From: a virus
IMG/VR virus record: IMGVR_UViG_3300010354_008449
Span: 1 to 31,745 of that record
DNA length: 31,745 nucleotides
Strand: one strand, 5' to 3'
Below, piece after piece: positions 7,241-26,651 of the stretch. Every line of letters starts with the position of its first letter. Position 1 is the first letter of the stretch. The position numbers and the translations under genes were made by a program. The notes under the pieces are model-generated. The model did not search any database. It was not told the origin of the DNA and was given only the letters and a program-made list of their open reading frames with translations.

Positions 7241-9721
7241 ATGAATTTAAAAGAGTTAGATAGTTTTAGCTTATCAGATGCAATCAGTTTCCATGATGAG
7301 TTAAATCCCAACCTTTGGGACGGTCAAGCTCTACAACCAGAAGTTAAAGAACAACTTTTAATTATAGCAAAAGACTTTTTAGAAGAATTAGGCGTTAATG
7401 ATTTAGACGTTAAAGATATAACTGTTTCTGGGTCAAACGCAGCATATAGCTATACACCACACAGTGATTTAGATTTACATATTTTAGTAGACCTGTCAAA
7501 ATTAGACAACAACGAAATATACCGTGAATTATTCAATGCAAAAAAGACAATTTACAATGACACACATAATATCACAATACACGGGGTACCAGTTGAATTG
7601 TATGTACAAGACGCCAGAGAACCAGTTGTAAGTCTAGGTGAGTACAGCATACTAAAAGATAAATGGCTTAGAATCCCCACTAAGCGTAGAGCAAATTTAG
7701 ACCAAACCGCCACCAAGCAAAAATATACAAAATTATCAGATATTATTAATAGAACATTAAAATCCAAGAACATTTTACAAGTCAATAAAATTATACAGAA
7801 AATTAAACAATATAGACAAGCTGGATTAGATAAAGGTGGTGAGTTTGGTCCCGAGAATTTAGCATATAAAATTTTACGTAAACAAGAATTGATTAGCAAA
7901 TTATATAACTTACGTGATAAGTTACATAGCGAAGAATTAACAATAGAAGATTATGATCCTAATGGTCCTCCCCCTGGGCCTGAATTTAAACCTACAATGC
8001 CTAAGGGAACAGTCAGAGTTGATGTTAGTGATGTATATGACTGGTATAAACTAGGTCAACATATCAGCAACATGAAGGGTTTAGGTAAGCATGACTTTGG
8101 TAAAGGACCGCCAAGTACAATATTATCGTTCGGGGACGAAGATTTAGAACACAAATACATTCAAGCATTACAAAAGACAGGTCTTACAACAACAGACATT
8201 GATCCAGTTGATCCCAAACAACCTAAGGGCATGAAGCGTCAGAAAGTTGACCCTACATATAATGTAGTAGAAAACTTTGCCGATGATGGTACTACGCAAA
8301 TTCAATTCAATCATAGCATAAGCTACGATTACAACGATGATCCAGAAAGAATTGCAGTTACGGCTAACAAAAATGGACAACAAATCGGATATGCGGAATT
8401 TGTAACAGACGACCCGAGTTATGGAGTATTTTATTCAGAATTTACAAAAGTTGAGCCTGAGTATCAAAAACAAGGTATAGGTCGCGGCATGTATAATTAC
8501 GCAAAAAAATTAAAACAGATTAAACAAATTGTACCAAGTCCTAATCAAAGTGGTGCGGGTGCATCTCTGTGGAAACACAAAGATAGTGTCTGGGAGAATT
8601 TTTCCGATAGTAAGAACCCGCAGGACAAAGGCGACAGTAAAAGATATAAGGTACCCACTAAAGGTAAAATAAGTACATTACGCAAAGTAGCCGAGCAAGA
8701 TATGACGGAAGGATTTGATCAACCTTATCCTCTTAAATGGGAAAAGAGTGATTATGGTGATGTTGACGCATTAGCAACATTAGCAGACGGAACATATCTA
8801 AGTATCATGTTCAACAAGCAACAAGATAACGAAGGTGAAGAAGTCGTGGAAGTTGAATTTTATAGAAACAACAGCCAAGAAGTTACAGGTGAAGGTGACG
8901 CAATGCGTATTTTTGCTACAGTATTGACTGCGATTCAGCAATATGTTAAAAAATATAAGCCTGCAAGATTGACGTTCTCAGCAAGGAAAGAAGTAGAACA
9001 GGATCAAAATACTGAAAGTCGTGCTAAGTTATACGATAGGTTAGTACAGCGTTATAGTAACGCATGGGGCTATAGAGCATTAAGAGCAGACAATGAGGAT
9101 TTAGTCATTTACGAATTAAGTAGGTTAACGAGTGTAAAGGAAGAAGTCAATCCTAAAATTTTTAATGATATTATAAATTCACTACCTATGTTTGGAACTA
9201 AACCTGTTCAGATAGGTGACTTTATGTTTGACGCCCGCACTTTTATAGGTGGATTAGGAGATCCTGATGCAAAAGGATTACAAATTAGATCATATGATCC
9301 TAAAAAGCCAAAGGGTCAACAGACAATTGGTTCCGCAAGTTTTACTGTGAAAACTGATAAAAAAGGAAATTCATGGCTAGAAAGTGACGATACCAAAGTT
9401 GATGATGAATATCGTGGCAAAGGTGTAGCAGCACTGATGTATGCCTATGCTAAGAGTTTGGGCAATGATATTAAACCAAGTCCATATCAAAGTGAAAAAG
9501 GCCGTGCAATGTGGAAAAAATGGGGCAAGGATGCTGAACATTTAATGAGGGAAGCATCAGGTTACATTCCATCTGAAAAAGAGAAAAATGACCCTCGTTT
9601 TAAAACAGCGTTAACAGTGGATGTTCATCCTGACACTATGAAAAAAAACGCTAAAAAGTTTGGTAACAAGATTAGCAGAGCAGGCATACCCCCTACTGCT
9701 AGACCTGACGGTAAGTTCTAA
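7241..9721 (+). CDS. multidomain nucleotidyltransferase / GNAT / GNAT protein
   Basis: An 826-residue mosaic. Residues about 35-150 form a Pol beta-type nucleotidyltransferase: SGSNAAYSYTPHSDLDLHIL (63-82) has the GS motif and acidic pair D76/D78, and the third acid is probably E119 or D124. A helical segment follows (about 155-235). Residues about 345-450 are a GNAT-like acetyltransferase with YQKQGIGRGMY (408-418, acetyl-CoA motif A) and VPSPNQSGAG. Residues about 485-630 are an unknown domain that begins MTEGF. Residues about 650-765 are a second GNAT-like domain with YRGKGVAALMY (724-734) and KPSPYQSEKG. The tail ends with a basic IPPTARPDGKF segment. Several effector-type domains on one chain recall the polyvalent proteins that phages inject with their DNA. 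Targets are unknown. Confidence 0.8.
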   Translation: MNLKELDSFSLSDAISFHDELNPNLWDGQALQPEVKEQLLIIAKDFLEELGVNDLDVKDITVSGSNAAYSYTPHSDLDLHILVDLSKLDNNEIYRELFNAKKTIYNDTHNITIHGVPVELYVQDAREPVVSLGEYSILKDKWLRIPTKRRANLDQTATKQKYTKLSDIINRTLKSKNILQVNKIIQKIKQYRQAGLDKGGEFGPENLAYKILRKQELISKLYNLRDKLHSEELTIEDYDPNGPPPGPEFKPTMPKGTVRVDVSDVYDWYKLGQHISNMKGLGKHDFGKGPPSTILSFGDEDLEHKYIQALQKTGLTTTDIDPVDPKQPKGMKRQKVDPTYNVVENFADDGTTQIQFNHSISYDYNDDPERIAVTANKNGQQIGYAEFVTDDPSYGVFYSEFTKVEPEYQKQGIGRGMYNYAKKLKQIKQIVPSPNQSGAGASLWKHKDSVWENFSDSKNPQDKGDSKRYKVPTKGKISTLRKVAEQDMTEGFDQPYPLKWEKSDYGDVDALATLADGTYLSIMFNKQQDNEGEEVVEVEFYRNNSQEVTGEGDAMRIFATVLTAIQQYVKKYKPARLTFSARKEVEQDQNTESRAKLYDRLVQRYSNAWGYRALRADNEDLVIYELSRLTSVKEEVNPKIFNDIINSLPMFGTKPVQIGDFMFDARTFIGGLGDPDAKGLQIRSYDPKKPKGQQTIGSASFTVKTDKKGNSWLESDDTKVDDEYRGKGVAALMYAYAKSLGNDIKPSPYQSEKGRAMWKKWGKDAEHLMREASGYIPSEKEKNDPRFKTALTVDVHPDTMKKNAKKFGNKISRAGIPPTARPDGKF

Positions 9722-14107: not shown

Positions 14108-14167
14108 ATGGACAAAGTTTGGGATTTTTATTGGCAATATAAAGGACGTTTACCAGGACAGAAATGA
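14108..14167 (+). CDS. possible 19-aa peptide or translational coupler
   Basis: MDKVWDFYWQYKGRLPGQK starts directly after the previous stop and its TGA overlaps the ATG of the glutamine amidotransferase gene. It is Trp/Tyr rich. It may be a real micro-protein or may only carry ribosomes to the next start. Chance cannot be excluded at this length. Confidence 0.35.
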   Translation: MDKVWDFYWQYKGRLPGQK

Positions 14168-14892
14168 AACCTGTATTAATATTAGCGCATCAAATCCCCG
14201 AACATCCTGCATATTTGACTACGTGGCTAAAAAGTAACAACGTGTCATATCAACTATTTAATGCAGGTAAAAATCAAGAATTCCCTACATCAATAGAACC
14301 TTATTCAGCCCTAGCAGTAATGGGTGGGGGCATGAGTGCTAACGACCCATTACTAAGTAATAGACAGGCTGAAATACTTATACTACAATCAATGTACAGA
14401 GACATACCTGTTATAGGGCATTGTCTAGGTGGACAATTAATGGCTAAAGCATTAGGTGGTAAAATTACCACATCATTTCAGCCTGAGATAGGTTGGCAAG
14501 AAATACGTTATATAGATAACCCATCAACAACTGAATGGTTTGGCACTAATCCAACTGATACCGTGATACATTGGCACTATGAAACTTTTAGTATACCTAC
14601 TGGTGCTAATTTATTAGCAACGTCTTATGCTTGTCAAAATCAAGCATTTAGTGTTGGGAAGCATTTAGCTATGCAATTTCACATTGAAATTGACGAAGCA
14701 AAAGCAGTAGCTTGGACAGAAGATATAGATCCTAAATGGGAATCAGCTATTAACACATATAATTCAGTTCAAAACAAAGAACAAATAATAAACGATATTC
14801 CAAAATACATAGACAAGCACAAGTCTACAGCAAATAGTATCTATACAAATTGGCTAAAAACTACAGATTGGTCTGAACTAATCAAAAACTGA
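14164..14892 (+). CDS. class I glutamine amidotransferase-like protein
   Basis: The 242-residue protein is a lone class I amidotransferase domain. PVIGHCLGGQ (82-91) holds the nucleophile Cys87 in the usual elbow. AMQFHIEID (169-177) supplies His173 and Glu175, completing the Cys-His-Glu triad. VMGGGMSAND (52-61) matches the conserved oxyanion-loop region. Such domains release ammonia from glutamine for a partner synthase, but lone members related to E. coli YfeJ act alone or on unknown substrates. No synthetase domain is fused or adjacent. Its stop sits inside a late promoter motif for the Dps gene. It might act in base or cofactor modification, or hydrolyse a gamma-glutamyl compound. All catalytic residues are present, so activity is expected. 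Confidence 0.88.
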   Translation: MKPVLILAHQIPEHPAYLTTWLKSNNVSYQLFNAGKNQEFPTSIEPYSALAVMGGGMSANDPLLSNRQAEILILQSMYRDIPVIGHCLGGQLMAKALGGKITTSFQPEIGWQEIRYIDNPSTTEWFGTNPTDTVIHWHYETFSIPTGANLLATSYACQNQAFSVGKHLAMQFHIEIDEAKAVAWTEDIDPKWESAINTYNSVQNKEQIINDIPKYIDKHKSTANSIYTNWLKTTDWSELIKN

Positions 14893-14919: not shown

Positions 14920-15360
14920 ATGCTTTCAGATAACTTAAAGGTTTTACTAGCCAGCACCCAAGCGTTTGCTATTAAAAGTCAAAACTTTCATTGGAACGTA
15001 GAGGGTAGTGATTTCCCTCAATATCATGCTTTCTTTGATACACTATACAATGATGTAAGTGACACTATTGATAAAATTGCAGAATATGTAAGAATTTTAG
15101 GTCACTATACTCCAGGCAGTCTTAGCCGATATATAGAATTGTCAATAATACAAGATCAAACAAAAATACCACGTGCTGAGTTAATGTTTGCTGAATCATT
15201 GCAAGATTGTGAGAAAATTTCAGAATTAGTAGTTGCTATGTTTCACGAAGCAACAAATGAAAATCAGCAAGGTATTGCTAACTATATGGCTGAATTGCAA
15301 GATTTGTATGGCAAAAAAGCGTGGTTTATAAGAAGCATTCTTAAAAAAGAACGTGAGTAA
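14920..15360 (+). CDS. dps: Dps-like ferritin (DNA protection and iron storage)
   Basis: The 146-residue protein is a Dps-type four-helix bundle. QNFHWNVEG is the Dps signature, and the LYNDVSDTIDKIAEYVR segment follows. The ferroxidase ligands are complete: His24, His36, Asp40, Asp51 and Glu55 have the same spacing (12, 4, 11, 4) as E. coli Dps H51/H63/D67/D78/E82. LGHYTPGSLSRY also fits. Dps forms dodecamers that oxidise Fe(II) with peroxide, store iron and often bind DNA. The N-terminus is short and lacks the Lys-rich arm E. coli Dps uses for DNA binding. A late promoter precedes it, and putative packaged-protein genes flank it. It could protect phage DNA or the infected cell from oxidative damage. 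Confidence 0.92.
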   Translation: MLSDNLKVLLASTQAFAIKSQNFHWNVEGSDFPQYHAFFDTLYNDVSDTIDKIAEYVRILGHYTPGSLSRYIELSIIQDQTKIPRAELMFAESLQDCEKISELVVAMFHEATNENQQGIANYMAELQDLYGKKAWFIRSILKKERE

Positions 15361-17955: not shown

Positions 17956-18389
17956 AGAAAATTATAACAACATTATTACTAGCAATAGCTTCAATAGCAT
18001 ATGCTCAAAAACAACCTCAGGGGGTAACCTATGATGCACAAATCGTTCGTGTGAATGACGGCGATACTGTAGTCATAGCGGCTCCCTTTCTACCTGCTCC
18101 GCTCAAACCAGAACTTGCAGTTAGAATCTATGGCGTGGATACTCCAGAAAAAGGATTTAGAGCAAAATGTCCCCAAGAAGATGCTAGAGGACAAGCAGCA
18201 AGCAAGTTCACAAAAGATATGGTTGCGAATAGTCAAAAACGACAAGTCGTCCTCTATGACTGGGACAAATTCGGTGGCCGTGTTTTGGGAGATATCATTT
18301 TAAACGGACAAAGTTTACGAAGCATGTTAATTAAAAATGGATTTGCCCGCGAATACTTTGGTGACGCTAAACAGAGTTGGTGCAATTAA
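17952..18389 (+). CDS. exported staphylococcal-nuclease-like endonuclease
   Basis: The first 19 residues (MKKIITTLLLAIASIAYAQ) form a Sec signal peptide with an A-Y-A cleavage site. The mature protein is an SNase domain. VNDGDTVV (34-41) gives the calcium-site Asp, VRIYGVDTPE gives Arg58, Asp63, Thr64 and Glu66, and KFGGRVLG gives Arg110. Spacings (R to D/T/E 5, 6, 8; E to R 44) equal those of staphylococcal nuclease R35/D40/T41/E43/R87, so it should be a calcium-dependent nuclease. Cys73 and Cys144 could form a disulfide outside the cytoplasm. In a phage this could destroy incoming DNA of rival phages in the periplasm or scavenge nucleotides. It ends convergently with the methyltransferase gene. 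Confidence 0.9.
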   Translation: MKKIITTLLLAIASIAYAQKQPQGVTYDAQIVRVNDGDTVVIAAPFLPAPLKPELAVRIYGVDTPEKGFRAKCPQEDARGQAASKFTKDMVANSQKRQVVLYDWDKFGGRVLGDIILNGQSLRSMLIKNGFAREYFGDAKQSWCN

Positions 18390-19105
18390 AGTTTTTTATA
18401 AACAAAGTATAATCTATCGTTATTATCTTTTTTAAAAGTTTCTAATTTTAGATTGTATTTGTCTGCAAACTCTTTGACTACTTCAAATGACCATGGAAAT
18501 ATATCAACATATGGCCCTGTCTTATGAGATATTCCAGGATTGGCTCTTAAGAACATTGAGCCGCCTTGCTGAAGTATACTAACACATTTTGCAAAGCGTT
18601 TTTCAATTTCATCTTTGCTATTGAAATTAATAGACCCTAATGCAATAATAACATCGTGTTCACCTACATAATCTAATATATCAACCATGTAATCTGCACA
18701 ATTGTTATAAGGGTCAATACCTATCAAATTATGTATTCTACCCTTGAATGGATGATACCCGCACCCAACATCAAGTACACTCTTTGGATTTAAATTATTA
18801 ACTTCTTCAGCTAATTGCCACCCAGTATAATCATACTCGTTTGTTCTAGGCTTCCAAATTTCAGCAAAGAATCTATGAGTATAACGGTTACTTAAATCAG
18901 TTGTAATGTCACTTAACGTTCCAATATAGTCACAAGACAAACTTAATTCAGCTTCAACACTATCTTTGAATTTACGATATCTAGCAGGAGTCCATGGTAG
19001 TTGGTCTACTATAGTATTCTCATCAATAGAAATATTTGCATACTTTGGTAAATTAAATGCGTTTGACAAATTTTCTTTAAGTAGCTTAAAAATTTTAGTA
19101 TTCAT
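18386..19105 (-). CDS. class I SAM-dependent methyltransferase
   Basis: The 239-residue minus-strand product carries VLDVGCGYHPFKG (about 110-122), the glycine-rich SAM-binding motif I. LIGIDPYNNC supplies the acidic residue of motif II, and DVIIALGSINF forms motif IV. The C-terminal half has GGSMFLRANPG and a final LYFVYKKL strand, in the class I order. A helical N-terminal region of about 95 residues may recognise the substrate. There is no signal peptide, so unlike both neighbours it is cytoplasmic. It is one of only two minus-strand genes here. Its stop codon shares TTAA with the nuclease stop, and a perfect TATAAATA late motif faces it from 19163-19170. The substrate is unknown. Confidence 0.82.
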   Translation of the reverse strand: MNTKIFKLLKENLSNAFNLPKYANISIDENTIVDQLPWTPARYRKFKDSVEAELSLSCDYIGTLSDITTDLSNRYTHRFFAEIWKPRTNEYDYTGWQLAEEVNNLNPKSVLDVGCGYHPFKGRIHNLIGIDPYNNCADYMVDILDYVGEHDVIIALGSINFNSKDEIEKRFAKCVSILQQGGSMFLRANPGISHKTGPYVDIFPWSFEVVKEFADKYNLKLETFKKDNNDRLYFVYKKL

Positions 19106-19144: not shown

Positions 19145-19152
19145 CATAAATA
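19145..19152 (+). promoter_or_regulatory. T4-type late promoter motif CATAAATA
   Basis: CATAAATAT lies 28 bases before the TctC-like gene ATG, which has GGGAG as ribosome site. It forms an inverted repeat with the opposite-strand motif 10 bases further on. Confidence 0.6.
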
Positions 19153-19162
19153 TTTTGTATTT

Positions 19163-19170
19163 TATTTATA
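19163..19170 (-). promoter_or_regulatory. perfect T4 late promoter TATAAATA, minus strand
   Basis: On the minus strand this reads TATAAATA, the exact T4 late consensus, 57 bases upstream of the methyltransferase ATG. It faces the plus-strand motif at 19145, so transcripts from the two would overlap by a few tens of bases at their 5' ends. Confidence 0.55.
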
Positions 19171-19180
19171 GGGAGTTAGT

Positions 19181-20137
19181 ATGAAACAAATTATTTTGTC
19201 ATTATTATTGTGCCCAATATTAGCAATGGCACAACCAGTAACCGGGACTGTTAAAGTAATAATAGGATTCGCACCTGGATCAGGTAACGAGATATCTTTT
19301 AGAAAAGCATCAAGTATTGTAGAAAAAAACAATCCAAACGTAAACTTTGTAATAGAAAATAAACCAGGAGCTGATGCAGTAGTTGCACAAAATACAGTTT
19401 TATCAGCAACGAAAGACGGTAAATTAATAGGTGTGCCTAGTCATATGAGTCTATTTGTAACTAATGATATTTGGCAAAAAGATATTAAAAAGTTTCAGTA
19501 TAACAGTTTTACTAACGTTGTTACGTTAGGGCAAAGTCCATTAGCATTAGTAGCTAAATCATCTAGTATAATAGATACCCCACAACAGTTCCTAGCAACA
19601 GTACAATCTGGTCATAGAAGTATAAACATAGCAACTGGTGGCGGCGCACATCAAATGGCGTACGAATACATTATGCTTAAATTAAAAGGTGACAGAACAA
19701 AAATTCAAGCAGTTAGATATCAAGGACCTAGTCAAGCAGTAACAGCAGTTGCTGGTGACAAGGACGTAGAGTTTGGAATTATGCCAATTGCAATCGCAAG
19801 ACCATTAATTGAAGCCGGCAAAGTTAAATTGATAGGGTTAACTGGAAATCGTGTACCCGAGAAAATGCAAGATGCTAAATTATTAGAACATAGCATTCCA
19901 GGTATCAGTGTATATGCAGGATGGTTAGTTAGCTTGCCACCAGACACTCCAAAAAATATCTCAGACTGGTATCAAAAAGAATTTAGTGCTGCAATTAGAA
20001 GTAAAGAATATAGAGAATGGGCAAAAGAAAATTATATTTTAATTGCTGAAGACCAGTTAAATATTAATGGTGTAAACAACTATGCTGAAACTCTTAGAAA
20101 AAGTTTTGCACCAATAATTGAGTCTTTATCTAAATGA
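19181..20137 (+). CDS. TctC/Bug-family periplasmic solute-binding protein
   Basis: The 318-residue protein starts with a signal peptide (MKQIILSLLLCPILAMAQ, A-M-A site). The mature protein follows the Bug/TctC pattern: VKVIIGFAPGSGNEISFR (24-41), VIENKPGADAVVAQNTV (57-73), INIATGGGAHQMA (148-160), RYQGPSQAVTAVAGDKDVEF (179-198), KVKLIGLTGNRVPE (214-227) and GWLVSLPPDTPKN (247-259). Family length is about 300-330, so it is complete. These proteins capture carboxylates such as citrate or dicarboxylates for tripartite tricarboxylate transporters or signalling systems. No membrane subunit is visible here, so it would have to serve a host transporter. It has a late-type promoter. It is very unusual cargo for a phage and points to a proteobacterial host, probably a betaproteobacterium. 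Confidence 0.92.
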   Translation: MKQIILSLLLCPILAMAQPVTGTVKVIIGFAPGSGNEISFRKASSIVEKNNPNVNFVIENKPGADAVVAQNTVLSATKDGKLIGVPSHMSLFVTNDIWQKDIKKFQYNSFTNVVTLGQSPLALVAKSSSIIDTPQQFLATVQSGHRSINIATGGGAHQMAYEYIMLKLKGDRTKIQAVRYQGPSQAVTAVAGDKDVEFGIMPIAIARPLIEAGKVKLIGLTGNRVPEKMQDAKLLEHSIPGISVYAGWLVSLPPDTPKNISDWYQKEFSAAIRSKEYREWAKENYILIAEDQLNINGVNNYAETLRKSFAPIIESLSK

Positions 20138-20763
20138 AATATATTTTTGTAGCAGGTGCACCCGGTAGTAAATGGTCAAGTGTAGTTAAAAATATTTACT
20201 ATAGTGATAGTATAGACCGTAGCGATTATAGTGATGAACGTACATATTACCATGATGCATCCGGCGAAATGCAATTAATGCATCTTGGTGCATACTTTGA
20301 TCCTGGCATGGAATTTGGAACCATGCTTGATAATATGTACTCATATAGTAAAAAAGATTTAGAAAAAGAATTTGACAGACCGTTTAGCAGTACAGGAATT
20401 AGAATTATTAAATCGCATGTGTTTGCAAATAATATCAACTTTTTAAAAGAACATTGGCCTGAATGCCCTATTGTATTAGTTCATAGAAGTGATGACAGTT
20501 GTTTGGGTTGGTGGGTTAAATGTGGTCACTTCAATATCACATATCCTGATTATTCAAGTTACTACCAAAACTTAAAAGTAATGGCTAATAAAATTAAACA
20601 ACAAAATCAAGGGATTACAGATGCAATGTGGTATTATAAACACAAAGGGTTAAAAGAAGTATACACAAATTTAGATTTGTGTAATGTTTTGGCCATTAAA
20701 TGGCCAAATAATGAATATAGTCAAAACTATTTAAACAACGATGTAAAGGTTGCAGTAATATGA
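20134..20763 (+). CDS. sulfotransferase-like P-loop protein
   Basis: The 209-residue protein opens with YIFVAGAPGSKWSSVVKNIY (3-22), a strand and P-loop-like turn of the kind sulfotransferases use to bind the 5' phosphosulfate of PAPS. A later HWPECPIVLVHRSDDSCLGW stretch fits the 3' phosphate-binding strand and helix with Arg and Ser. It has no signal peptide. From memory, proteins of this form occur in aquatic T4-like phages, usually annotated as sulfotransferase family. It overlaps both neighbours by 4 bases and is followed by a 2OG-Fe(II) oxygenase, which suggests a shared small-molecule or surface-modification role. A kinase-like activity on another donor is possible. Confidence 0.65.
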   Translation: MKYIFVAGAPGSKWSSVVKNIYYSDSIDRSDYSDERTYYHDASGEMQLMHLGAYFDPGMEFGTMLDNMYSYSKKDLEKEFDRPFSSTGIRIIKSHVFANNINFLKEHWPECPIVLVHRSDDSCLGWWVKCGHFNITYPDYSSYYQNLKVMANKIKQQNQGITDAMWYYKHKGLKEVYTNLDLCNVLAIKWPNNEYSQNYLNNDVKVAVI

Positions 20764-21434
20764 TAAAAAGTAGTTGGGAAGAAACTAAAAAATTAAGCAA
20801 ATATCATTTTGATAATTTTAAAAATGATAATCAACAAGATAAAGTAGATGTATTAGGTAAACTTACATATGACTTTAAAGATGATGTAGCAAAAATAATT
20901 AAATCGTCAAAACCAAGTACATGGAGAACACGCGGAGAACATAGCAATGCAAGATCATCTATTGAGTACGATACAGAAGAATATGATTTAGAAAATACTG
21001 GTTATAGTAAGAATCATATTGTTAGTAATTTAACATATGAAATGACACCAGTGTGTAATAGGATAGGTGAATTATTTAACTTTGATAAAATGTCAAAAAG
21101 ACTGCATGTACAACTACCTGGACAAGTTTGGAATTTACACATAGACAAATTACAAAAATATAATCCAGATTATCCAGAAACTGTTATGAGAGTCATGATA
21201 CAACTTACAGACTGGGAGCAGGGTCATTTTTGGAGTTATGGTAATTTCATGTATAAACAATGGCGTGCTGGAGAAGTTACTACGTTTGATTGGCAAAATA
21301 TCCCACATTCTACTGCAAATGCAGGACATAATCCAAGAGTTACATTACAAATTACTGGTATAATGACTGATCAGTCAAAAGAATTTATTAATAGATTAAA
21401 AAGATTTCAAAAATACGACTTAACATTTGATTAA
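20760..21434 (+). CDS. 2-oxoglutarate/Fe(II)-dependent oxygenase
   Basis: The 224-residue protein has WNLHIDKLQKY (124-134) with the iron-binding His127-x-Asp129. IPHSTANAGHNPRVTLQI (181-198) follows, with the distal His183 and Arg193 that would hold the 2-oxoglutarate carboxylate. RVMIQLTDWEQGHFWSYG and AGEVTTFDW complete the double-stranded beta-helix order and resemble aspartyl/asparaginyl hydroxylases. It should hydroxylate a peptide or small molecule using oxygen and 2-oxoglutarate. It lies directly after the sulfotransferase-like gene (ATGA) and ends convergently, sharing TTAA with the radical SAM gene. The substrate is unknown. Confidence 0.85.
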   Translation: MIKSSWEETKKLSKYHFDNFKNDNQQDKVDVLGKLTYDFKDDVAKIIKSSKPSTWRTRGEHSNARSSIEYDTEEYDLENTGYSKNHIVSNLTYEMTPVCNRIGELFNFDKMSKRLHVQLPGQVWNLHIDKLQKYNPDYPETVMRVMIQLTDWEQGHFWSYGNFMYKQWRAGEVTTFDWQNIPHSTANAGHNPRVTLQITGIMTDQSKEFINRLKRFQKYDLTFD

Positions 21435-22990
21435 GAAATATTTTGATTTATCAAGTTTAACCAATAATTTTTTCTATGCGTAGTGTATACAGAAGGTGAA
21501 GTATAACTGCATCTATCCATAAGTTGTTTATAATTTTGTTTTTCTAAATCTTCATCTGGTATATTATAGTACCAAGCGGTTCCTATTCTCCAACCGCCCC
21601 AGCGATAACTTTTCCATTTTTCTATACTATAAAAATCAGATAATTTAGTTGCTTCTTTATAATCCATATATTTATTTTTCCAGTTTACAAATACACTAGT
21701 GGGATCTATATCACTTACATCATAGCCATATTTTTCTGGATTTTCTTCTATTGGGCTTTTTGTATTGTCAGCTAAATTTATTGAGTTGAATTCGTCTTTG
21801 TTTTTTCCAAAAATTATTGTTTCGCCGATATTTTTTCTGTGTATATGTAGAGGAGCATAATACCACCAATCTAAAAAATTAGGTTGATGTTTTACAAACG
21901 TTTCATTCCATATCCCTGGATCTTCTTTAGTATCACCTGGTAATCCTACAATAAGAGTTCCAGCTAATCTAAGTTTGGGCGCAAGTTGTTTTAGTTCAGC
22001 AGTCGCATCAATTATTTTTTCTATGGCTATTGGTCTACCTATTAATTTACGTGTTGAATTGTTCCCGCTTTCAATTCCATAATGTCCACCTCGTAAACCA
22101 CTACTTGCTAGTGCTTTTATCATGGCAGGTCTTGTTACAAGCATTTCTGGTCTTATGTATGCAACATATTCAAAATCTGGTAATCTTGCTAAATCAACAG
22201 CACGTTTTAATGTGTCAATCTTTTCAATACTATCATTAAAAGTATCATCGGCTAACATATATCTTGTTATACCAAATAAATCATAATTTTGACGTAATTC
22301 TTCAGCTATACTTTTTTCAGTACGAACATAATCTCTTATTTTTTTGTTTTTAAATGCAAATTTACAAAATGCACAATTAAAAACGCATCCACGACTTATC
22401 TCTAAAGAAAGTGCTTGATGTGATTTATATTGATCGTCTGGATGATATCTAGTAAACATTAAATCCATGTCATCGATAGGATAGTCACGGTTGCTGTCTA
22501 TATAATTTACATCATAATCAGCATTTTTTAGATTTGTATATTTTAAGTTTCCTGTCCCATACTTTAAATACTGCATTAATAAAGGCATTGAGAGTTCTCC
22601 GTAACCACTTACTACCCAATCTGTTAACTTAAGAAGTTCAATTGGAATTCTCCCGATAGTTTGTGTTCCAATTGTAATTTTCACATTTGGAAATCTCTGT
22701 TGTTGATTATCTTTAATTCTTTTAAATTGAAGAATCTGCTCTTCGGTCTCCCATCTGAGCATAGCCCAAACAAAAGACAAACCAATAGCTAAAGTGTCTG
22801 GACCTACACAATAATTTAAAATTTTATCAAGCTCGTCACTTGTTAAAATATCCTCAAAATCTATCAAAGAACATGTGTAACCATGATTTTCTAATACAGT
22901 TCGTATTCTGTAAGGACCTAATGCTCTTCCAGTGTTTTCATTAGGAAGGCCACCAATTAAAACAAAATGCGAATTTTTTTTCAGACTCAT
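21431..22990 (-). CDS. radical SAM enzyme with B12-binding-like N-terminal domain
   Basis: I place the start at ATG 22990 (519 residues, MSLKKNSHFVLIGG). An in-frame TTG lies at 23047, but the late motif at 23011-23018 would start transcription inside that extension. The N-terminal 150 residues form a Rossmann-like domain (FVLIGGLPNENTG, SLIDFEDIL, LAIGLSFVWAM, VVSGYGE) like cobalamin-binding domains, though I see no DxHxxG cobalamin motif. ISRGCVFNCAFCKFAF carries the CxxxCxxC cluster (Cys202/206/209) for the 4Fe-4S that cleaves SAM. GGHYGIESGN and LIVGLPGDT are typical radical SAM barrel strands. The C-terminal 150 residues are Trp/Tyr rich. Likely a methylase or ring-forming enzyme. The substrate is unknown. 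Confidence 0.88.
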   Translation of the reverse strand: MSLKKNSHFVLIGGLPNENTGRALGPYRIRTVLENHGYTCSLIDFEDILTSDELDKILNYCVGPDTLAIGLSFVWAMLRWETEEQILQFKRIKDNQQQRFPNVKITIGTQTIGRIPIELLKLTDWVVSGYGELSMPLLMQYLKYGTGNLKYTNLKNADYDVNYIDSNRDYPIDDMDLMFTRYHPDDQYKSHQALSLEISRGCVFNCAFCKFAFKNKKIRDYVRTEKSIAEELRQNYDLFGITRYMLADDTFNDSIEKIDTLKRAVDLARLPDFEYVAYIRPEMLVTRPAMIKALASSGLRGGHYGIESGNNSTRKLIGRPIAIEKIIDATAELKQLAPKLRLAGTLIVGLPGDTKEDPGIWNETFVKHQPNFLDWWYYAPLHIHRKNIGETIIFGKNKDEFNSINLADNTKSPIEENPEKYGYDVSDIDPTSVFVNWKNKYMDYKEATKLSDFYSIEKWKSYRWGGWRIGTAWYYNIPDEDLEKQNYKQLMDRCSYTSPSVYTTHRKNYWLNLINQNIS

Positions 22991-23010
22991 AAGAAAGTAT
23001 TTAAGACTTA

Positions 23011-23018
23011 TATTTATT
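23011..23018 (-). promoter_or_regulatory. T4-type late promoter motif AATAAATA, minus strand
   Basis: On the minus strand TTAATAAATATAAG lies 20 bases before the ATG at 22990, the same spacing as the plus-strand late motifs. Confidence 0.55.
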
Positions 23019-23079
23019 AATAAAAATTTATCCAATTCTTGCGCCAAATTTATGCATTAATTAAATAGATGGTAAATTT

Positions 23080-23087
23080 AATAAATA
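23080..23087 (+). promoter_or_regulatory. T4-type late promoter motif AATAAATA
   Basis: AATAAATATAA is followed by a second near-match TTAAATATAAG (23091-23101). Both precede the deaminase-methyltransferase ATG at 23131. With the minus-strand motif at 23011 they make a back-to-back divergent control region. Confidence 0.5.
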
Positions 23088-23130
23088 TAATTAAATATAA
23101 GCATTCAACTGAGGCAGATCAATTTCATTA

Positions 23131-24177
23131 ATGAAACCAAGCGATTTTCAAATATATGACCATGAAAAACTTGACAAAATTCTAGTAGAGTTATGTCAAC
23201 TAATTATTGACGGGCAAAAAATAAATTCTAACTTATATGGGATGGTTGGGGCTGCGGTATTGGATAATGATAATAATTTAGTTAAAAGTACAAGTTATAA
23301 AACTAAAGGCAAGTTCGTACATGCTGAACGTGCAGCAATAGATAAGTATGAAAAAAATTATGGTCCATTGTCATCAGGATCTATAATTATTACTACACTA
23401 AGTCCTTGTAGTAAATCAATGGATGATAGATACAGTGATAGTTGTACATCATTAATAAATGATAGTCCAATTAAAAAAGTATATAGCGGTTATAGCGATC
23501 CCACTCAAGATAATTCAGAAAGCTACAAACACAAAAAGTTTCATATACAAACTACAAAGAATAAACAAATTTTAGAATTATGTAAAACATTTGCTGATAC
23601 ATTTTTAAAAGAAAGTTTGTTAGAAGTTAATCCAAATACATTATCTGGTAGTGAAGGTCCAGGGTTAAATGAATGTAGAACATATTTACTAGAGCAACTT
23701 AAAAAAATAAAAACAGAATTTGATACCATTTATATTTTAGGCAGTTGGTATGGTAATTTAAGTATGATGATTGAAAATGATAATGATTTTAACTTTGATA
23801 GAATCATAAACGTAGAATCTGATAAAGAAGCATTAGAAACAGGTCAAGAAGTAATAGATAAATTAAATTACAAGTTTATCTATGGTATGTATAAAGATGC
23901 CAACAAACTAACTTACCAAGAACTAGGAAATAATGGACTTGTTATTAATACAAGTTGTAATAATATTGACGGTACTGATTGGTTTGCAAACATACCTGAT
24001 AATACAATGTGCATATTATCAGCACGTAATAACGACGAAGGCGCCATAAATAAATTTAATAGTACGATTGATTTGTTAGAAAAGTATCCACTGAATAATA
24101 TATTATATGCAGGTAAAAAAGAGTTTATGGATCCTGAAACAAAATATGATTACTATCTTGTTATAGGGACAAAATAA
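23131..24177 (+). CDS. deaminase-methyltransferase fusion protein
   Basis: The 348-residue protein has two domains. Residues about 10-125 are a cytidine-deaminase-like zinc domain. FVHAERAAIDKY (62-73) has His64 and the proton-shuttling Glu66, and SPCSKSMDDRYSDSC (91-105) has Cys93 and Cys105. The Cys-Cys spacing is longer than the usual PCxxC. Residues about 180-345 resemble a SAM-dependent methyltransferase: TIYILGSWYGNLSMMI (199-214) as motif I, IINVESDKEA as motif II and GLVINTSCNNIDG (269-281) as motif IV. I have not seen this pairing described. It could deaminate and then methylate a base or nucleotide, or act in a small-molecule pathway. It overlaps the desaturase gene by one base. Confidence 0.78.
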   Translation: MKPSDFQIYDHEKLDKILVELCQLIIDGQKINSNLYGMVGAAVLDNDNNLVKSTSYKTKGKFVHAERAAIDKYEKNYGPLSSGSIIITTLSPCSKSMDDRYSDSCTSLINDSPIKKVYSGYSDPTQDNSESYKHKKFHIQTTKNKQILELCKTFADTFLKESLLEVNPNTLSGSEGPGLNECRTYLLEQLKKIKTEFDTIYILGSWYGNLSMMIENDNDFNFDRIINVESDKEALETGQEVIDKLNYKFIYGMYKDANKLTYQELGNNGLVINTSCNNIDGTDWFANIPDNTMCILSARNNDEGAINKFNSTIDLLEKYPLNNILYAGKKEFMDPETKYDYYLVIGTK

Positions 24178-24893
24178 TGTATGAAATTCTTTACTTGTTA
24201 ATTCTAACACATATTACTATTGTATGCGTTACTGTATACTTACATAGAGGTCAAGCACATAAAGGTTTAATTTTCAATCCAATATTAGAACACTTTATGC
24301 GTTTTTGGTTGTGGCTTACAACTGGTATGATAACCAAACAATGGGTAGCTATACATCGTAAACATCATAGGTATTGTGAAACAGTGGATGACCCGCATAG
24401 CCCGCATATATACGGTATATGGAAAGTATTATTTAAAGGAGCATTGTTATACCATGAAGCGTCAAAAGATAAAAATATGGTTGATTCATATGGTGTTGGC
24501 ACTCCTTCTGATTGGTTGGAGCACAACATATACAGTCCTCACTCCAGACTTGGCATTGGCATTCTCTTTTTGTTCAACATCTGGCTCTTTGGTTGGATTG
24601 GCGCCCTAATATGGATAGTACAAATGATATGGATTCCGTTCTGGGCTGCTGGGGTAGTTAACGGTTTAGGACATTGGTTTGGATATAGAAATGGTGAGAC
24701 TAAAGATAATAGCAAAAATATAAGTCCTTTAGGCTTTATAATTGGTGGAGAAGAATTGCATAATAATCATCATTTAAATCCTGCTAGCCCCAAACTAAGT
24801 TTACGCTGGTACGAAATAGACGTTGGTTGGATATATATTAAGATTTTTGAAATGCTTAAATTACTTAAACTTAAAAATAATCTTAAAGTTTAA
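24177..24893 (+). CDS. membrane fatty acid desaturase (acyl-CoA/lipid type)
   Basis: The 238-residue protein is an integral membrane desaturase. It has all three histidine boxes of the di-iron centre: HRGQAH (23-28), HRKHH (60-64) and HNNHH (195-199), plus the accessory His in NGLGHWFGYRN. Hydrophobic helices lie at about 4-22, 36-53, 124-140 and 140-161. It would insert a double bond into an acyl chain, most likely delta-9 type, needing oxygen and host electron donors. It is shorter than bacterial homologues of about 270-380 residues, but the core is intact. It could adjust membrane fluidity or lipid signals during infection. It shares the ATG/TAA overlap with the deaminase fusion and is followed by a new late promoter. 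Confidence 0.92.
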   Translation: MYEILYLLILTHITIVCVTVYLHRGQAHKGLIFNPILEHFMRFWLWLTTGMITKQWVAIHRKHHRYCETVDDPHSPHIYGIWKVLFKGALLYHEASKDKNMVDSYGVGTPSDWLEHNIYSPHSRLGIGILFLFNIWLFGWIGALIWIVQMIWIPFWAAGVVNGLGHWFGYRNGETKDNSKNISPLGFIIGGEELHNNHHLNPASPKLSLRWYEIDVGWIYIKIFEMLKLLKLKNNLKV

Positions 24894-24905: not shown

Positions 24906-24913
24906 GATAAATA
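24906..24913 (+). promoter_or_regulatory. T4-type late promoter motif GATAAATA
   Basis: GATAAATAG lies in the 41-base gap after the desaturase, 21 bases before the next ATG. The ribosome site is weak (TAGGTG). Confidence 0.55.
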
Positions 24914-26060: not shown

Positions 26061-26651
26061 ATGATTAAACTCCTAGTTCCACTACCCAAAAAAGTAACAG
26101 TTGCCTGCAGCGGTGGTGTGGATAGTATGGCTGTGGTTGATTTTCTTAAACGAAAGCATGACGTAACCCTTGCGTATTTTCATCATCGTACAACGCACGG
26201 TGAACATGCTATGGAATTTGTTGCCAAATATGCTACGGAAAATAACATGTCTATGCTTTTTGGTAGCTGTCGTAGTGAAAAATCAAATGAAGAATCAATG
26301 GAAGAGTATTGGCGCAGAGAGCGTTACGACTTTTTAAAAGACTTGGGGCCCGTAATCACTTGCCATCATCTTGATGATTGTGTAGAAACATATGTTTGGT
26401 CTAGCCTTCATGGTACACCCAAAGTCATTCCTATGATTCGTAATAACGTATTGCGTCCATTTTTAACTACACGTAAAAGTGAATTTGTATCTTGGTGTGA
26501 GCGTCATAATGTTCCATGGATTGAGGATCATTCTAACAAAGATATCAAATACACAAGAAACTATATTAGAAATGAAATGATGCCGCATATTTTGCGAGTT
26601 AACCCAGGCATTCATTCTTTGGTGAAAAAAATCATTGAAAATAAGAATTAA
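26061..26651 (+). CDS. tilS: tRNA(Ile)-lysidine synthase, minimal form
   Basis: The 196-residue protein is a PP-loop ATPase of TilS type. VACSGGVDSMAVVDF (14-28) carries SGGVDS. ITCHHLDDCVETYVW matches the H-H-x-D-D-x-x-E-T motif. The VPWIEDHSNKDIKYTRNYIR stretch is the TilS tRNA-interaction segment (D-x-S-N-x-D, R-N-x-I-R). It is about half the length of E. coli TilS (432) and lacks the C-terminal tRNA-recognition domains, but compact versions keep only this core. The enzyme turns C34 of the CAU anticodon into lysidine so that the tRNA reads AUA as isoleucine. That suits an AT-rich phage with many AUA codons. A -10 box lies just upstream. Confidence 0.87.
   Translation: MIKLLVPLPKKVTVACSGGVDSMAVVDFLKRKHDVTLAYFHHRTTHGEHAMEFVAKYATENNMSMLFGSCRSEKSNEESMEEYWRRERYDFLKDLGPVITCHHLDDCVETYVWSSLHGTPKVIPMIRNNVLRPFLTTRKSEFVSWCERHNVPWIEDHSNKDIKYTRNYIRNEMMPHILRVNPGIHSLVKKIIENKN

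Follow-up and report, generated by a model that had tools for sequence, protein, structure and literature searches.

The stretch of DNA analyzed here, the whole of IMG/VR virus record IMGVR_UViG_3300010354_008449 (the window; 31,745 bases, classed as linear), carries three plus-strand genes in tight succession: TctC (19181..20137), the periplasmic receptor of a tripartite tricarboxylate transporter (Pfam TctC, 5.8e-17); ST (20134..20763), a predicted sulfotransferase-fold P-loop transferase; and OG (20760..21434), a predicted 2-oxoglutarate (2OG)-Fe(II) oxygenase. Their divergent partner on the minus strand is MT239 (18386..19105), which encodes an S-adenosylmethionine (SAM)-binding protein with the motif LDVGCGY. 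Beyond OG lie a radical SAM open reading frame (ORF; 21431-23047, minus strand), a deaminase fusion (23131..24177, plus strand) and a DesA-type fatty acid desaturase (24177..24893, plus strand). A sequence-only reading had proposed the interval 20134-24893, from ST to the desaturase, as a candidate island of five genes in a row that would form an undescribed pathway. All five ORFs are present there; however, only ST and OG belong to the module described below, of which they are the core, and TctC and MT239 lie outside the interval. Furthermore, the radical SAM gene is encoded on the other strand and points toward OG; the five genes are therefore not a single transcription unit. We give roughly even chances to the reading that TctC-ST-OG with the divergent MT239 is a conserved, late-expressed phage group-transfer operon and that the radical SAM gene and the fusion-desaturase pair are cargo. 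The observations behind it are gene linkage, predicted folds, conserved residues, promoter orientation and a variable cargo site. The window, whose DNA polymerase belongs to phrog_262, probably represents one part of a large phage genome, as the same genes are found in several relatives of 331-374 kb.

Gene linkage and promoter motifs of the proposed operon

Relatives were collected separately with each gene, and the loci were then compared for gene neighborhood; the ST scan by itself gave 435 viral stretches with a confirmed relative. In 79 of 81 loci, OG follows ST at a distance of no more than 1.5 kb; the exceptions are L046, where the order is inverted, and L052. A 4-bp ATGA overlap recurs in 55 of the 81 ST-OG pairs, and ST-OG is a translationally coupled pair. 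In the window, TctC and ST overlap by 4 bp (ATGA), ST and OG likewise by 4 bp, and the deaminase fusion and the desaturase by one base. TctC is found upstream of ST in 49/57 loci, and MT239, on the minus strand, in 54/57. The MT239 protein shares 40-85% identity with its relatives, among which LDVGCGY is invariant; it matches CmoB and Methyltransf_23 weakly, and a PDB sequence search with its profile gave no meaningful match. The TctC slot before ST is usually filled, yet by receptors of 34-75% identity, and sometimes by two copies. One genome (G007) retains only a 42-amino-acid OG remnant beside ST (C1:126080-126172), and its diverged OG adjoins an APS-kinase-like gene (APS, adenosine 5'-phosphosulfate) at a site 70 kb from ST (53764-54764).

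Two late-type promoter motifs lie between MT239 and TctC. The plus-strand motif CATAAATA (19145..19152), located 36 bp upstream of the start codon of TctC, would read TctC-ST-OG, and the minus-strand motif TATAAATA (19163..19170) would serve MT239. In intergenic DNA across the clade, NATAAATA stands upstream of genes in the sense orientation 135 times and in the antisense orientation 3 times, while other AT-rich 7-mers show less orientation bias and are commoner within ORFs. NATAAATA is thus an oriented promoter signal in this clade, and its resemblance to the late consensus of the T4 type suggests the late class. Judged only by its frequency in the window, the 9-mer TAATAAATA does not rise above chance (3 copies against 2.5 expected). 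Within 160 bp upstream of the start, NATAAATA was found for 38/75 TctC genes, 1/76 ST genes and 2/85 OG genes. Because the oriented motif precedes TctC and MT239 and almost never ST or OG, the three genes would form one late operon, and the divergent MT239/TctC pair is the one predicted to drive the module.

Divergent late motifs had also been proposed at 23011 and 23080. The exact T4 motif TATAAATA is absent from both places, and NATAAATA was taken as the criterion instead; AATAAATA occurs there on both strands, at 23011..23018 (minus) for the radical SAM gene and at 23080..23087 (plus) for the deaminase fusion and the desaturase. Given the 135:3 orientation bias, the sites at 23018 (minus) and 23080 (plus) are credible as promoters. 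A further late-type motif site at 24906 (plus) precedes the next gene after the desaturase.

Predicted folds and conserved residues of ST and OG

The ST family alignment has a mean column identity of 68%, with K93 and R118 invariant, and 22 of 36 family members match Sulfotransfer_3 in Pfam (best 1.7e-5). The AlphaFold2 model of the 209-residue ST protein (predicted local distance difference test, pLDDT, 90.5) has the tyrosylprotein sulfotransferase TPST1 as its top structural match (Z 11.3 over 166 residues, 12% identity). Tyrosylprotein sulfotransferases score Z 10.3-11.3 against 9.4 for adenylate kinases, a modest margin; a kinase assignment was judged less likely, as both Pfam and the highest-ranking structures favor a sulfotransferase. 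The sulfotransferase-like label given to ST from its sequence is thereby supported at the level of the predicted fold. ST resembles tyrosylprotein sulfotransferases and Sulfotransfer_3 in a P-loop fold that spans almost all of the chain, in its family-level Pfam matches and in the invariant K93 and R118, and differs from them in its low identity, its length of 209 residues, the missing canonical Ser after R118 and the lack of any meaningful match when the PDB was searched with the ST profile. Among viral structures a single protein matched clearly, one from an uncultured phage that is labeled 'sulfotransferase family' and is 62% identical, and the annotated phage collection held two distant matches, both from one uncultured marine virus. 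A cellular origin was set aside: 84,980 species genomes gave only two matches, both on short contigs, one of which (L219) carries a phage-type polymerase.

For OG, residues H127, D129, H183 and R193 are invariant in 43 sequences and correspond to the HxD...H facial triad and the 2OG-binding Arg. The OG model (pLDDT 92.9) matches proline 3-hydroxylase (1e5r; Z 12.1, 20% identity), which indicates a double-stranded beta-helix dioxygenase fold, and the assignment as a 2OG-Fe(II) oxygenase agrees with the model and the invariant residues. OG thus resembles proline 3- and cis-4-hydroxylases and Asp_Arg_Hydrox in predicted fold and in the invariant HxD, H and R. Unlike the proline hydroxylases, it has no meaningful relative in a PDB sequence search with its profile, and its match to Pfam Asp_Arg_Hydrox lies below the cut-off, with no significant hit for the window protein itself. 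Annotated phage records gave no match to OG.

The wider module and what it may transfer

Clustering of the ORFs around ST in 86 non-redundant loci showed which partners recur: another P-loop protein (ST2), a cupin, a class I amidotransferase and an APS-kinase-like protein that in some cases also has a nucleotidyltransferase (NT) domain. One locus (L070) has the row amidotransferase-kinase/NT-cupin-ST2-ST-OG; a distant 383-kb virus (L307) has a contiguous kinase/NT-TctA-TctC-ST2-MT-ST-OG, whose parts other than the kinase show 33-46% identity; and L220, a contig out of a Pelagibacter bin, has TctA-TctC-ST-OG-MT. Reciprocal scans placed ST within 4 genes of the amidotransferase in 37/64 loci and of ST2 in 41/65. 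An APS-kinase-family gene is present in 13/23 records searched, often directly after OG. The kinase/NT family mostly occurs without ST or OG, and its role in the module is therefore optional; as a fusion of about 260-290 amino acids it is widespread in viral contigs (L242-L321, at least 80 loci). Other loci (L353-L364 and L346) hold the amidotransferase, two ST2 copies and ST without OG, and sometimes further P-loop proteins (clusters n13 and n24), an arrangement that is a richer variant of the module. ST2 had no Pfam hit as a sulfotransferase and no meaningful match in a PDB sequence search with its profile; its motif suggests that it is perhaps a transferase.

Our inferences on the sequence of reactions, on the donor and on what TctC and MT239 do are as follows. 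TctC, together with TctA in some relatives, would import or sense a small solute, probably carboxylated in view of the two transporter proteins. OG would hydroxylate a substrate with 2-oxoglutarate as co-substrate, either making an acceptor hydroxyl or acting on a small amino-acid-like solute. ST, and perhaps ST2 in relatives, would take a group from a 3'-phosphonucleotide donor and attach it to the hydroxyl, the group being the sulfate of 3'-phosphoadenosine 5'-phosphosulfate (PAPS) or a related one; such a donor is suggested by a P-loop sulfotransferase-fold enzyme adjoining an APS-kinase-family gene, and in some relatives the kinase/nucleotidyltransferase would supply it. MT239 may then methylate the product or the transferred group. 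Candidate acceptors are a small molecule, an envelope glycan or a virion protein. The radical SAM gene and the fusion-desaturase pair would be insertions in the stretch that separates OG from the replication genes, with no part in the module. For the transferred group, sulfate is our default assumption and phosphoramidate the novel alternative. No ATP sulfurylase was found in 21 records, and therefore a phage PAPS route of that type is not present in them.

In our judgment it is unlikely that the ST module synthesizes a phosphoramidate-type group and transfers it in the manner of the O-methyl phosphoramidate (MeOPN) capsule pathway of Campylobacter, which proceeds through cytidine diphosphate (CDP)-amidate and uses an amidotransferase, a nucleotidyltransferase, a 3'-kinase, a methyltransferase and a transferase; several features of the relatives nevertheless point to it. 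All 16 module amidotransferases match NF045546, the gamma-glutamyl-CDP-amidate hydrolase family, the first member with 104 bits versus 53 for the next family, and the amidotransferase is linked to ST, ST2 and MT239 in the reciprocal scans. Moreover, the kinase-nucleotidyltransferase combines an APS-kinase-family half with a half resembling nicotinamide mononucleotide (NMN) adenylyltransferase, and the published MeOPN intermediate is 3'-phospho-5'-cytidine diphosphoramidate (PMC6429109). Relatives thus share with that pathway an amidotransferase nearest to the hydrolase, a putative APS-kinase-like 3'-kinase, a nucleotidyltransferase and a methyltransferase. However, the amidotransferase scores reach at most about 104 bits, under the 250-bit equivalog cut-off, and do not place it as the hydrolase itself; the PPDK_N domain of a glutamine kinase was not found in 21 records, many of them fragments; and the amidotransferase is absent from most loci. 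The window itself has neither amidotransferase nor kinase, and the module differs further from the Campylobacter pathway in its HxGH-type nucleotidyltransferase and its extra oxygenase and transporter. NF045545, guessed as a neighboring accession, proved to be an unrelated family. A fuller form, to which we give slightly less credence, is that large aquatic phages own a pathway that activates and transfers a phosphoramidate-like group on a 3'-phospho-CDP-type nucleotide, with a transporter, an oxygenase and a methyltransferase, for late decoration of a host-surface, virion or small-molecule target.

Alternatively, ST and OG could hydroxylate and sulfate residues of the virion or tail fibers, with TctC unrelated. 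The late promoter, the closeness of ST to tyrosylprotein sulfotransferases and the matches of OG to peptide prolyl hydroxylases are consistent with this. The best OG matches, however, act on free proline, and the constant link to the transporter, including TctA in several loci, points to a small solute; we regard this alternative as quite improbable.

We assign the same low probability to the view that these genes are unrelated auxiliaries, side by side through shared ancestry only. Phages often keep gene order, and the distance matrices follow the polymerase: the ST-OG correlation is 0.50, against 0.60 and 0.78 with the polymerase, so that no signal of ST-OG co-evolution beyond shared descent was detected with this comparison. 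On the other side, the set reassembles in distant viruses as TctA-TctC-ST-OG-MT, as ST2-MT-ST-OG and as ST-OG-ST2-kinase, and reassembly in different orders is more than shared descent alone predicts.

Besides the distance matrices, several observations weigh against a conserved group-transfer operon. First, the window ST has no Pfam hit of its own. Second, PAPS-dependent sulfotransferases normally have a canonical Ser 8 residues after the 3'-phosphate-binding Arg; in ST this position (R+8) is Trp126 in all members, and the Arg...Ser motif is absent. Third, the partners also occur apart: a few loci (L125-L128) have OG without ST, loci with ST and the amidotransferase exist without OG, and 72 of 80 APS-kinase-family loci among those listed lack both ST and OG. 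At last, TctC sequences are swapped freely (distance correlation r 0.16-0.19; 0.16 with ST), which suggests a changing solute specificity.

Probable cargo genes and the place of the module in phage biology

The interval between OG and the polymerase measures 7,201 bp in the window and 915-4,483 bp in 27 relatives; it is a variable cargo site, and the window carries the largest load among the 28 loci compared. Of 64 loci, only 5 have the radical SAM gene, 3 the deaminase and 1 the desaturase in the 5.5 kb that follow ST, so the three occur independently of ST-OG, contrary to the co-occurrence expected of a five-gene pathway. By present evidence they are ordinary phage cargo outside the ST-OG module.

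The radical SAM protein, with CVFNCAFC as its CxxxCxxC motif, belongs to the superfamily (Pfam, 68.2 bits versus a cut-off of 29.5; 1.2e-18), and its likely start is the internal ATG at 22990 rather than the TTG at 23047 (gene 21431..22990). The B12-like part of its initial description was not supported, since the cobalamin-binding domain scores 16.4 bits against a cut-off of 32.1 and the sequence has no DxHxxG motif. Neither viral contigs nor annotated phages contained close relatives; large records contained relatives at 26-36% identity. Of the supposed deaminase-methyltransferase, only the deaminase half was confirmed. The zinc deaminase half (about residues 1-162; Pfam, 37.8 versus 25 bits, 1.8e-9) has H64, E66, C93 and C105 invariant, in the patterns H[AG]E and PC...C, with an unusual gap of 11 residues between the cysteines in the window. 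The C-terminal half (about 163-348), a conserved phage domain, has no Pfam or PDB sequence match and is at most a putative methyltransferase. The two halves are separate genes elsewhere: G001, for instance, has only the part that corresponds to residues 163-348, and G002 only that of residues 1-156. The lipid desaturase was correctly recognized: it matches Pfam FA_desaturase (59.9 versus 29.7 bits, 4.1e-16) and NCBIfam DesA (396.6 bits, 1.2e-118, just under the cut-off of 400) and has the three His boxes HRGQAH, HRKHH and HNNHH. Of 20 large records, 17 have it, mostly at distances from ST of tens to hundreds of kb; in G001, for example, the two lie at 92 kb and 177 kb. Annotated phage records gave a match to neither the deaminase fusion nor the desaturase.

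It is very improbable that the five genes make up a single new biosynthetic pathway: they are adjacent, the divergent motifs at 23018/23080 could co-express both sides, OG-deaminase-desaturase is contiguous in L125, L126 and L115 (in the last with ST before OG) and in one lineage a radical SAM family of 34% identity precedes the module by several genes, but this contiguity is confined to close relatives, the radical SAM gene appears in no locus collected via the desaturase or the deaminase fusion, and the low counts near ST and the distant desaturases stand against it.

Elsewhere in the window, the gene at 26061-26651 encodes a TilS N-terminal domain alone (196 amino acids; 120 bits versus a cut-off of 93.6), a phage tRNA lysidine synthetase-like protein that lies near ST in 25 loci. 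An 826-residue protein with nucleotidyltransferase-like and acetyltransferase-like regions is encoded at 7241-9721. A second, different glutamine amidotransferase, PRK07053-like, is encoded at 14164-14892, with a ferritin-like protein next to it at 14920-15360.

Phage sulfotransferases have been reported with unclear function (PMC10580990), and viral fatty acid desaturases (PMC7300359) and phage tctA and 2OG oxygenases (PMC4164917) are each reported singly. The passages of the latter two papers that were covered do not describe the linked TctC-ST-OG-MT operon; we found no published description of the TctC-ST-OG operon in the literature covered, which is incomplete. The expectation of an undescribed pathway is thus borne out insofar as a conserved and undescribed group-transfer module appears to be present, albeit not one formed by the five genes first named. 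Exotic enzymes clustered in one phage speak for a pathway only if the cluster recurs, and the ST-OG module, not the five-gene set, is the part worth study. A gene set predicted to transport, hydroxylate, transfer and methylate is conserved across divergent large phages. The amidotransferase and the kinase of relatives permit an unusual and testable guess, a P-N bond in phage-infected cells, and identification of the product, if made, would reveal what these phages build late in infection.

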